Of a DNA stretch of 64,000 nucleotides, positions 8,458-32,627 are shown piece after piece (positions within the stretch are counted from its first letter, which is position 1; each line of letters opens with the position of its first letter). The notes under the pieces are model-generated. The model saw nothing but the letters and a program-made list of their open reading frames with translations, was not told the DNA's origin and did not search any database. The position numbers were made by a program, and so were the translations under genes. The stretch is taken from positions 1,054,001 to 1,118,000 of the forward strand of contig NZ_CP007035.1 of NCBI RefSeq assembly GCF_000243115.2, in the 5' to 3' direction. This DNA is from Niabella soli DSM 19437 (GTDB lineage Bacteria; Bacteroidota; Bacteroidia; Chitinophagales; Chitinophagaceae).

Positions 8458-8818
8458 ACAATCGATTTAGGGTTTTTCATTATTTGGTTAGCTCCTTATA
8501 AAGATAGATAAAATATCAGCAAAAGACTACGACGGTAGTTCTTACTCAGGGCGAACGCATAAATTGGCTAAGCCACGAATGCGCTAATAAATGATTAATC
8601 TAATCGTAAAACAATGAACACAAATAGCGCCGGCGGCGCATGGGATTCGTGTTTATTTTCTTTGAATAGGGTACAACAGCTAATTCATTCGTGTATTTGT
8701 GGTAATCTTTTAAATTATGGCCCCCCTGAGTTCTTACAGTGTTTTTCAGTGGCAAAGCTCAGCCACAGAAACTCAGAAACACAGAAGGATATGCGTTACC
8801 TCAATAAAAATGCACCTC
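8458..8818. other. Gene-poor spacer with an inverted intergenic repeat
   Basis: No supportable gene. A degenerate inverted repeat runs from CCACGAAT (8573-8580) to ATTCGTGTATTTGTGG (8687-8702), enclosing a GC-rich GCGCCGGCGGCGC palindrome-like segment near 8627-8640. Such CCACGAAT/ATTCGTGG units are of a type I associate with Bacteroidota intergenic DNA. Confidence 0.5.
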
Positions 8819-9576: not shown

Positions 9577-9846
9577 GGTGTACCTACGGCACACCATAAA
9601 ACCCGGGGCCGTTACACGGCTACAAAGGGGTTGTCTCTACGAGACAAAAAACAGAAAAAAAAGTGGGGCAAATAACGATCTCTTTTTTATGCCTTTTATC
9701 TTTTGCAAGTGCTCCAATATTAGCTCTTTGTCTTAAGTAAATATGTCGAAAACATCCACCTTCATTCTCTACAAATATGCCGTAGGCATAACCCCTTTTT
9801 AGAAATAATATATCACAACGATTGACCATGCCGCGTAGCGGCTACC
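9577..9846 (+). repeat. Four-hairpin (REP-like) repeat, unit A
   Basis: Four hairpins in order: GGTGTACC-TAC-GGCACACC (9577-9595, one mismatch), TTGTCTC-TAC-GAGACAA (9631-9647), TATGCC-GTA-GGCATA (9776-9790) and GCCGC-GTA-GCGGC (9830-9842), closing with TACCC. The first two loops are TAC and the last two GTA, so the unit is a head-to-head arrangement. It abuts the stop codon of the IS200-like transposase gene (9847). Related units lie at 10358-10654, 10757-11000 and 32305-32493. Confidence 0.85.
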
Positions 9847-10314
9847 CTAATCGTTTTCAGGATCGGTAAAAAGGTACAAAGGATTGTATTCAATCCCGTA
9901 ATCGTTCAACAACTCCAGGTATTCATCTCTGAATAGCTTTTTAGCGTGATGTTCTTTTTGATTCTGAATATATTTTACAACCGTGTCAATCTGTGCATGG
10001 CCATGACTAAACGCACCATAACCTTCCTGCCAATAAAATTTTCGCCGGGTAAATCTCTCTTTGTTTACAAATTCGCTGCTGTCGCCTTTAACCTGGCGCA
10101 TTAATTCGGAAATGGATTGTTTGGGATTTAAACCAATAAACAGATGCGTGTGATCAGCGGCGGAATTAACGGCAATCATTTTATGACCATTATGTTGCAC
10201 AATGCCGGTAATATATTTATGTAACCGGCCTTCCCATTCGGGTTGTATAAGCGCCTTCCGGTATTTAACAGCAAATACAAAATGGATGTGCAATTGGGTG
10301 TAGGTGTTAGGCAT
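9847..10314 (-). CDS. IS200-like / REP-associated single-tyrosine transposase
   Basis: 155-aa Y1-type HUH transposase. The HUH motif is H55-T-H57 within DHTHLFIGL; the catalytic tyrosine is Y115 in VVKYIQNQKEHH. YRKALIQPEWEGRLHKYI and SISELMRQVKGDSSEFVN are typical of the Bacteroidota IS200/TnpA_REP group. The length is complete and no catalytic residue is missing. The gene sits between two direct copies of a four-hairpin repeat: unit A begins right after its stop and unit B starts 44 bp before its start. That layout resembles RAYT genes, whose transposase acts on dispersed REP sequences, more than an ordinary IS200 with one hairpin at each end. No accessory TnpB or serine recombinase is present. 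Confidence 0.85.
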   Translation of the reverse strand: MPNTYTQLHIHFVFAVKYRKALIQPEWEGRLHKYITGIVQHNGHKMIAVNSAADHTHLFIGLNPKQSISELMRQVKGDSSEFVNKERFTRRKFYWQEGYGAFSHGHAQIDTVVKYIQNQKEHHAKKLFRDEYLELLNDYGIEYNPLYLFTDPEND

Positions 10315-10357
10315 AGGTAATAATTTGTTATAAATATAATCATAAATATTTACATGG

Positions 10358-10654
10358 GGTGTGCCTACGGCACACCACCAAACCGGGCCGTTACACGGGC
10401 TACAAGGGGGTTGTCTCTACGAGACAAAAAACAGAAAAGGTGGGGGATAATGGCCTTTTTTTCATGTCTTTTATCTTTGGCAAGTGCACTTAAAGGGTTG
10501 CGCTTCGTCTTTGGCAAATATGCAGAAAACATTCCTTTTATTCTCTGCAAATATTTATACTAATGATCTTTTATTCTCGACAAATATGCCGTAGGCATTA
10601 CCTCTTTTTAGAAACGGAATATACAACGGTTGCCATGCCGCATAGCGGCTACCC
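10358..10654 (+). repeat. Four-hairpin (REP-like) repeat, unit B
   Basis: Hairpins: GGTGTGCC-TAC-GGCACACC (10358-10376, perfect 8-bp stem), TTGTCTC-TAC-GAGACAA (10411-10427), ATGCC-GTA-GGCAT (10586-10598) and GCCGC-ATA-GCGGC (10637-10649). Same order and orientation as unit A; it lies upstream of the transposase start. Confidence 0.85.
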
Positions 10655-10756
10655 TTCGAGACCATTAAAAATATAAAAACTCCAATCCTTCAAGCGTGTT
10701 TCGTTAAAAATGGTATTGCTTTTAAAAGAAAAATTTGAACAAGCCGGTGATAAAAG

Positions 10757-11000
10757 GGTTGTACCTACGGCACACCATAAACCCCGCGCCGTTACATGGG
10801 CTACAAAGGGGTTGTCTCTACGAGACAAAAAACAGAAAAGGGCTGAGGAGTAAGGGCCTTTTTTCATAACTTTTATTCTCTGCAAATATTTGGAAACATT
10901 ATATTAATGATCTTTTATTCTTTACAAATATGCCGTAGGCATAACCCCCTTTTAGAAACGAATTATACAACGGTTGGCCATGCCGCGTAGTGGCTACCCA
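10757..11000 (+). repeat. Four-hairpin (REP-like) repeat, unit C
   Basis: Hairpins: GTACC-TAC-GGCAC core (10757-10776), TTGTCTC-TAC-GAGACAA (10812-10828), TATGCC-GTA-GGCATA (10929-10943) and GCCGC-GTA-GTGGC (10982-10994, one G-T pair). The unit is slightly shorter than A and B because the spacer between hairpins 2 and 3 is reduced. It is in tandem with B. Confidence 0.85.
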
Positions 11001-13657: not shown

Positions 13658-13828
13658 AGTTTTTGGTTTTATGTTGATGCGGACCTCTCAAATAGGTGAA
13701 AGTTTATTTATTTGTAATCATGCCAATTAGTTTATAATAAATAGTCTATTTCTCGGCAATCAATTTTTCGAATTTTATACCCATTTCCCCCGCGTTAGGG
13801 ATTGCAGCGGCATCCTTTTGTGAAGTGC

Positions 13829-13876
13829 AACGGAACAAAAGATATAGCGGAAAGCCCGACCCGTAGGGAACGCCCT
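13829..13876. repeat. GATATAGCGGAAAGCCCG intergenic element
   Basis: The string GATATAGCGGAAAGCCCG, followed by CCGTAGGGAACGCCC, directly precedes the 3' end of the XRE gene. I recall closely similar sequence between genes in other Bacteroidota, where it behaves as a dispersed repeat. Only one copy is in this window, so the call rests on memory. Confidence 0.3.
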
Positions 13877-32234: not shown

Positions 32235-32304
32235 CAGTATTTTAATCGGGTGCAATGATGTAATACTGAACGGCCATTAGAATTACTACTATTTTTTTTC
32301 AATG

Positions 32305-32493
32305 GGTAGCCGCTACGCGGCATGGTCAATCATTATACGCTACGGTTCTAAAAATGGGCAATGCCGAAGGCATTTTTCAACACTCCTCTTATACAAAGTA
32401 CCGGGGAGCCGTTTCGCCTGTTTTGTTCCATCGGAACAACCTGTTGGTAGACTTGTTACAGCAGCAGATCATTTTGGTGTGCCGTAGGTACAC
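32305..32493 (-). repeat. Four-hairpin (REP-like) repeat, unit D, diverged and inverted
   Basis: Read on the minus strand the order is the same as in A-C: GTGTACC-TAC-GGCACACC (32476-32493), TTGTTCC-GAT-GGAACAA (32423-32439), AATGCC-TTC-GGCATT (32360-32374) and GCCGC-GTA-GCGGC (32309-32321). In hairpins 2 and 3 the arm bases differ from A-C but base pairing is kept, i.e. compensatory change. It is ~21 kb from the transposase gene and just past the end of an operon. Confidence 0.75.
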
Positions 32494-32627
32494 TCCGTAA
32501 AATAATTTTGATGCCGATTTATTATACTATCGACAGACGCGGGTTGCTCACGTTTATCGTTTGACATTTCACGACTTGCTTAGCGCCAGTATCCAATAGC
32601 GAAAAACAAGCCGCTGAAGCTCCTAAA

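Follow-up and report, generated by a model that had tools for sequence, protein, structure and literature searches.

Paired hairpins around subclass 1.2 Y1 transposase genes of Bacteroidota suggest a REPtron-like system

An IS200-like transposase gene of Niabella soli lies within an array of short hairpins, which raises the question of what these hairpins are to the enzyme. The window, by which we mean the whole 64,000-nt stretch analysed here, corresponds to C1:1054001-1118000 of a one-contig 4.70-Mb genome. A first-pass annotation of it had described three units (A, B and C) with four hairpins each in a fixed order, and had read them together with the gene as a candidate REP/RAYT system. We found the units where they had been placed, as direct repeats composed of an 88-nt and a 78-nt family with three copies each, and the gene between units A and B. 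Each unit runs H1 (TAC loop), H3 (TAC), H4 (GTA), H5 (GTA or ATA). The consensus of H1 is GGTGTRCC-TAC-GGCACACC, while in units A-C H3 reads TTGTCTC-TAC-GAGACAA, H4 ATGCC-GTA-GGCAT and H5 GCCGC-GTA/ATA-GCGGC. The described order and loops are thus borne out, with the amendment that H1 of A has one mismatch, H1 of C two and H5 of C one, and that a weak fifth stem, GCCGTTACACGGC in unit A, lies between H1 and H3. Centre to centre, H1 and H3 are about 51-56 nt apart, and so are H4 and H5. Unit A does begin at the stop codon of the gene: TAG at 9847-9849 on the minus strand adjoins the foot of H5, and the minus strand just past it reads GGGTAG-CCGC-TAC-GCGGC. H3 is preceded by CTACAAAGGGG or CTACAAGGGGG, and H4 of unit A, on its own strand, by CTAAAAAGGGG. 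The fourth unit, D, has the opposite orientation and, as had been claimed, a compensating change in H3 from TTGTCTC/GAGACAA to TTGTTCC/GGAACAA. A scan of the window with Rfam at the gathering score gave no match in the array; its sole match was a Flavo-1 RNA (RF01705) at 13783-13865. Below, '>' denotes a hairpin with a TAC-like loop and '<' one with a GTA-like loop.

Table 1 Hairpin units and transposase gene in the window.
Feature	Position	Strand	Description
Unit A	9577..9846	+	module '>>' (H1, H3) and inverted module '<<' (H4, H5)
H1 of A	9577..9595	+	loop TAC, one mismatch
CTAC before H3 of A	9620..9623	+	candidate cleavage site; lies at -18 to -15 from the loop, where other families also have CTAC
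H3 of A	9631..9647	+	TTGTCTC-TAC-GAGACAA
H4 of A	9776..9790	-	TATGCC-GTA-GGCATA; CTAA at 9799-9802, minus strand
H5 of A	9830..9842	-	GTAG foot, GGGTAGCCGC-TAC-GCGGC; adjoins stop codon
TnpA-Y1 (IS200-like) gene	9847..10314	-	subclass 1.2 signature, 155 aa; PF01797 E 1.4e-31
Unit B	10358..10654	+	H1 10358-10376, CTAC 10400-10403, H3 10411-10427, H4 10586-10598, H5 10637-10649
Unit C	10757..11000	+	H1 10758-10776 (two mismatches), CTAC 10801-10804, H3 10812-10828
Unit C, second half			H4 10929-10943, H5 10982-10994 (one mismatch)
Unit D	32260..32527	-	dispersed copy, imperfect terminal inverted repeats; absent from the same place in related genome G016
Unit D hairpins			H5 32309-32321, H4 32360-32374, H3 32423-32439, H1 32476-32494

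The window protein scores over the cut-off of the IS200 model NF033573 and reaches 24.2 bits with the REP transposase model NF047646 (REP_Tyr_transpos), below the cut-off of 80. Its motifs are DHTH, WQ and YIQNQKEHH. The HUH residues H55 and H57 and the tyrosine Y115 that had been picked out beforehand are invariant in an alignment of 46 proteins, as is W95-Q96. The tyrosine motif is YIQNQ, not the Y---NP of class 2, and the enzyme has the signature of subclass 1.2 and is not a RAYT. Its AlphaFold model (pLDDT 91.0) retrieved the TnpA proteins of ISDra2 and IS608 as best Foldseek matches, with TnpAREP 4er8 at rank 30. A tree of 37 rows, among them 19 of the 75 stop-free loci, set apart eight IS200 rows together with one cyanobacterial row at support 100/99; this single cyanobacterial match groups with IS200, and the window protein pairs with a Mucilaginibacter protein. 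The tree separates our proteins from the IS200 rows (subclass 1.1) and leaves unsettled whether subclass 1.2 is one clade. According to passages of Quentin et al. 2018 (PMC6006769), the HuH motif of subclass 1.2 is DH[IV]H, from which DHTH departs, and WQ is also the motif of the REP-linked subclasses 2.4, 2.5 and 2.7, IS200 having W[TS]. The automatic REP search described in these passages required GTAG or GTGG and a basal stem of at least 7 nt, so that many of the hairpins seen here would be missed.

The window genome gave ten Y1 matches, by motif eight 1.2-like genes or fragments and two class 2-like; the Y1 paralogues are at most 52% identical, and no identical copy of the transposase gene is present in this genome. 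Two other 1.2-like genes of the genome have tandem hairpin arrays of their own, L029 (718-1282, 1950-2218) with units of about 165 and 159 nt and L032 (1826-2749), which has a TAG in the gene frame, with 156-nt units. The units of both arrays measure about 156-166 nt, and their hairpin sequences are unlike those of the window.

Such hairpins accompany most related genes. From one scan of genome contigs we took the best 80 of at least 559 related loci, nearly all Bacteroidota by title, to which all counts in this paragraph refer. Y---Q--HH is kept in 73 of these 80, and five have a stop. A pair of hairpins 46-58 nt apart lies within 600 nt of the gene in 59 loci and is lacking in 21, whereas the same spacing occurs in 2 of 78 loci in stretches 2.4-3.0 kb off (shuffles expect 0.1). 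The 600-nt flanks of the 80 genes contain 191 short hairpins, compared with 14.2 +- 3.5 in 20 shuffles that kept neighbour frequencies. Strict hairpins number 2.39 per kb within 600 nt versus 0.39 beyond 1.5 kb, and in non-coding DNA alone the densities are 4.22 per kb near the gene and 0.93 farther off. Likewise, non-coding hairpins with G(N)NA-type loops or their complements number 82 near versus 7 far over similar lengths. The spacing between neighbours peaks at 50-52 nt, with 150 of 443 values within 50-59. The frequent loops are C-GTA-G, C-GTTA-G, C-GAA-G and their complements; C-GNA-G and C-GNNA-G form very stable DNA mini-hairpins. One TnpB query found no TnpB in the 80 loci. Around most relatives examined, the hairpin design is thus constant and the hairpin sequence is each gene's own. 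The four-hairpin unit consists of two modules in inverted orientation, in line with the head-to-head composite of the first-pass annotation. The basic unit is the module itself, two hairpins at a spacing of about 51 nt, and the number of hairpins varies from gene to gene.

The hairpins are also oriented. Many of the best 80 of at least 559 loci read '<<gene>>', and others differ. Within 200 nt, the nearest upstream hairpin has a G(N)NA loop in 35 of these loci, T(N)NC in 1 and another loop in 23; the nearest downstream hairpin has T(N)NC in 25, G(N)NA in 7 and another in 29. We then turned to '>' the 321 of 467 hairpins, from 70 loci, that have one of six loops or of their complements. Their 5' side reads TTT-CTAC-AAT-AT, and the 3' side beyond the stem carries next to no motif. 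Since the loops and not the flanks set the orientation, the 5' motif is independent evidence. The first-pass annotation had proposed to look at the 5' boundary for a conserved tetranucleotide as in known REPs; what is conserved there is this asymmetric motif.

The motif further distinguishes the two hairpins of a pair. In 73 runs of exactly two hairpins from 42 loci (14 longer runs and 123 single hairpins were left out), TTTTCTACCAATATTT precedes the second hairpin and the first has only the AATAT part. CTAC is tied to hairpin 2 only (T at -17, 0.95; A at -16, 0.96), A-ATAT-like letters at -12 to -9 are common to both hairpins, and the 5' halves of their stems match at 84% of letters. Longer runs also occur: in locus L110 eight '<' hairpins precede the gene, seven of which stand at regular intervals. 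Most other families have an AATAT-like foot, but a GGGTAG foot is found at H5 of the window and at L037, L040, L118 and L120, four of ten near relatives; the guide of the window family is unlike the common one, with GGGGT for AATAT and CTAA at H4. Pairing of GTAG with CTAC, as a simple rule linking guide to cleavage site, fits the window clade only, and we do not claim it. Scanning for the motif without a hairpin proved noisy (292 sites near, 230 far), with the strands barely biased (upstream 66 + and 86 -, downstream 85 + and 55 -). The motif with a hairpin behind it occurs at 172 sites near versus 14 far.

Additionally, we examined the dispersal of the units in the window genome. A whole-genome search with unit C recovered A, B, C, D and further partial matches, so that the genome holds more than the four copies first seen: about seven dispersed copies, whole or partial, of which D is one. 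L005, L006 and L011 are close to complete copies of the D type, L009, L010 and L007/L008 are incomplete ones, and in all of them the match lies outside ORFs of at least 150 aa. L007/L008 appears to be interrupted by hairpins of another family (GGCTCC...GGAGCC), which looks like an insertion of one repeat within a second. In nine real own-genome copies of H3 anchored on CTAC, 5 to 7 of 7 positions pair; three further anchor matches with 3/7 pairs are due to chance. Two compensated pairs are found among these copies, and to this limited extent the covariation on which the first-pass annotation had relied is present. A covariation count on alignment A3 was not used as evidence, because its stems had been selected by perfect pairing, which makes the pair counts true by construction and proof of nothing.

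At the site of D, G016 has about 34 non-aligning nt where the window has 284 nt including D, with 82-86% DNA identity around it; judged from this alignment, the site is a polymorphism and not a clean empty site. G016 (a draft, 90% complete) contains unit-related pieces elsewhere, and the transposase gene has no match in it above 45% identity. A separate dispersed family, a repeat of about 115 nt at 8600-8730 of the window, has twelve matches of 90-94% identity in G016.

To follow the hairpins across genomes, we built a model of hairpin plus motif, R1, from 55 sequences (36 nt, 3-nt loops only); an alignment mixing 3- and 4-nt loops (A2) was dropped because its gap fell outside the loop. At E 0.05, R1 gave 199 matches in 26 of 59 related genomes, a lower bound in which genomes of training loci may be included. 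Its mirror image, R2, gave 5 matches in 5 genomes, the best at 25.2 bits versus 42.1 for R1. Since 116 or 58 candidates were scored per genome, the match counts are lower bounds. The association with the gene was assessed with 84 of 90 gene rows and the 150 listed of the 199 R1 matches: 26 of these 150 lie within 1.5 kb of a gene (14 genes in all), compared with 0.17 expected, and 124 lie away from any such gene. Among the 59 relatives, 22 have gene and hairpin, 13 the gene only, 4 the hairpin only and 20 neither (Fisher 5e-4, kinship ignored), which amounts to R1 matches in 22 of the 35 gene-bearing genomes and in 4 of the 24 gene-less ones. A sample of 118 genomes from the phylum gave 32, 20, 11 and 55, respectively (8e-7, kinship ignored), with matches in 32 of 52 genomes with the gene and 11 of 66 without. 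In G017, which has one 1.2-like gene, the dispersed modules share stems with the flanks of the gene; one example runs GGCTCC-gta-GGAGCC, 51 nt, TTTGCTCC-gta-GGAGCAAA. Two of 17 sites in G017 lie inside ORFs, which cover 61% of the regions. An earlier open-frame test of intergenic location placed 19 of 35 matches under a frame of at least 240 nt versus 18 of 70 flank positions, a result that speaks against such a location or is uninformative, and it was replaced by the ORF test on longer regions. Separately, a distant Y1 gene has eight matches of near-equal score in G007, a pattern that an active insertion sequence would be expected to leave.

These data bear on whether the arrays belong to an ordinary IS200/IS605 element that moves as LE-gene-RE on one strand, being its ends and its internally deleted derivatives (MITEs). 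The enzyme has the fold and family of IS200 TnpA, and D-type copies with their inverted ends resemble 268-nt MITEs. However, the flanking hairpins are often inverted and not both on one strand, the own-genome paralogues are at most 52% identical, most listed hairpin sites lie away from the gene, and the IS200 rows split off with support 100/99. We consider this explanation unlikely.

Alternatively, the hairpins may be mobile elements of another enzyme, among which the subclass 1.2 gene merely sits. Hairpins do occur without that gene, and two gene-less genomes of the phylum sample have 50 and 32 R1 matches. Seven of the 11 hairpin-only genomes in that sample belong to one genus (G111, G126, G095, G067, G072, G138, G172), with 3 to 50 matches (2 in G072), no subclass 1.2 gene found and other Y1 genes present; motifs such as CTACCGACATGCC or CTACCAATATGCC were seen at the hairpins of G111, G126, G095 and G067. 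G081, a sister genome of the seven, has the gene with a hairpin beside it. Thus the case that would weaken a gene link, equal hairpin numbers in genomes lacking the gene, holds for this genus and not for the phylum sample as a whole. Over both samples, 11 of 15 hairpin-only genomes hold other Y1 genes; in G028, G059, G079 (8 matches) and G159 no Y1 gene of any kind was found, which gene loss, an assembly gap or another enzyme would explain. The D-type copies of the window genome, moreover, have a guide unlike that of A-C. Against a foreign enzyme stand the stems, which vary by gene yet match dispersed copies in their own genome (G017), the linkage of 26 of the 150 listed sites to a gene where 0.17 are expected, and the orientation rule at the gene, so that we regard this explanation as highly improbable. 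Least probable of all, in our view, are transcription terminators or RNA processing signals clustering around a small gene: the hairpins are intergenic and often within 75 nt of the gene, but hairpins of one kind flank it on both sides with a 50-nt period, a 5' motif and no marked T-run after the stem, and farther non-coding DNA has far fewer of them (0.93 versus 4.22 per kb).

Instead, we think it likely that these loci constitute a REPtron-like system based on a subclass 1.2 enzyme, in which a module of two hairpins around a CTAC site is the elementary unit. The anatomy, motif, spacing, orientation and dispersal of the hairpins and their statistical link to the gene suggest that the enzyme cuts and spreads them as other transposases do with REP sequences, and we infer that the hairpins are bound by this enzyme, cleaved at CTAC and mobilised. 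The relation to REPs proposed by the first-pass annotation therefore persists in the dispersed copies, the 5' motif and the association with the gene, while the RAYT identity does not. Speaking against the REPtron-like reading are the 20 of 52 gene-bearing phylum genomes that have no R1 match (58-116 candidates per genome scored), the 11 of 66 gene-less ones that have hairpins, the four hairpin-bearing genomes with no Y1 gene found, and the 21 of the best 80 of at least 559 loci without a pair. The departure of the window family from the common guide and the imperfect empty site for D in G016 also count against it.

Under the REPtron-like reading, a single-domain HUH-Y1 transposase would recognise short hairpins with a 5' guide on single-stranded DNA, on one strand only. 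In the module, hairpin 1 with its guide would be followed after about 30 nt by CTAC and then, past a short gap that includes a similar guide, by hairpin 2; cleavage would fall at CTAC between the two hairpins, each of which may be held by one subunit of a TnpA dimer, like the end hairpins of IS608. By analogy, the '>' strand would be the substrate, the foot letters the guide and CTAC, which contains CT, the likely cut. As parts of PMC8266576 describe, the cleavage sites of IS200/IS605 enzymes are specified by a tetranucleotide guide that lies 5' of each hairpin, whereas E. coli TnpAREP cleaves at the CT flanking a REP on either side and fails to recognise the inverted REP; for one Marinomonas system, a role of the GTAG motif in site choice was shown. 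The gene would often lie between two outward modules, in '<<gene>>', with gene-less copies ('>>', or '>>...<<' as in A-D) scattered between genes; the four-hairpin unit is best read as two modules head to head.

A bolder version, to which we give limited credence, is that the module amounts to an 'RE - nick site - LE' joint of minimal size, with hairpin 1 as a right end, hairpin 2 as a left end and CTAC shared between them. Tandem runs (at least 7 hairpins per locus) might then be chains whose hairpins each close one unit and open the following one. A piece of about 50 nt, one hairpin with its linker, would be the smallest to move, a class 1 enzyme would mobilise it phylum-wide, and the REP system would have arisen separately from class 2.

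Subclass 1.2 has been described near IS200 transposases yet without IS or REP features, and its substrate had therefore been unknown. A candidate hairpin substrate specific to each gene, together with a motif shared across the phylum, makes this question immediately testable. Our best reading is wider than the earlier proposal, namely a REPtron-like partner of paired hairpins for subclass 1.2 across Bacteroidota. It would show that REP-like systems are not confined to class 2 but also occur beside true IS200 enzymes, and would thus bear on the way in which a transposase becomes a REP-processing enzyme. In the literature searched, which left most subscription papers, preprints and supplements outside, we found no account of hairpin repeats for subclass 1.2.

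Among known systems, the IS200/IS605 elements IS608 and ISDra2 (subclass 1.1) share the fold, the hairpins and, by analogy, the 5' guide; unlike them, the loci here have inverted modules on both sides, no TnpB with one query and no identical gene copies in the window genome. CGTC REPs, according to passages of Di Nocera 2013 (PMC3733652), occur in Bacteroidetes and Chlorobi, frequently as dimers, with an unpaired CGTC tag, stems of 8-9 bp starting with A-T pairs, loops of 4-5 nt and mostly CCA tails, and do not stand beside Y1 genes. The stems seen here have 5-7 bp and start mostly with G-C or A-T, the loops have 3-4 nt, and there is no 3' motif. REPtrons (TnpAREP/RAYT, class 2, with GTAG REPs) resemble our loci in their Y1 HUH enzyme, few gene copies flanked by inverted hairpins, dispersed copies, a 5' guide-like motif and hairpin sequences specific to the gene. 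They differ in that the enzyme here has the class 1 (subclass 1.2) signature Y---Q--HH, the hairpins have 3-4-nt loops and are paired at about 51 nt, and CTAC-NN-A-ATAT replaces GTAG in most families. With subclass 1.2, as portrayed in the passages of PMC6006769 cited above, the proteins share the Y and W motifs, a length of about 150 aa, divergent paralogues and Bacteroidota hosts. In sharp contrast to that portrait, in which Table 1 enters 'no' for REP and the text has the subclass generally lacking terminal IS200 structures, hairpin pairs accompany the gene in 59 of the best 80 of at least 559 loci.
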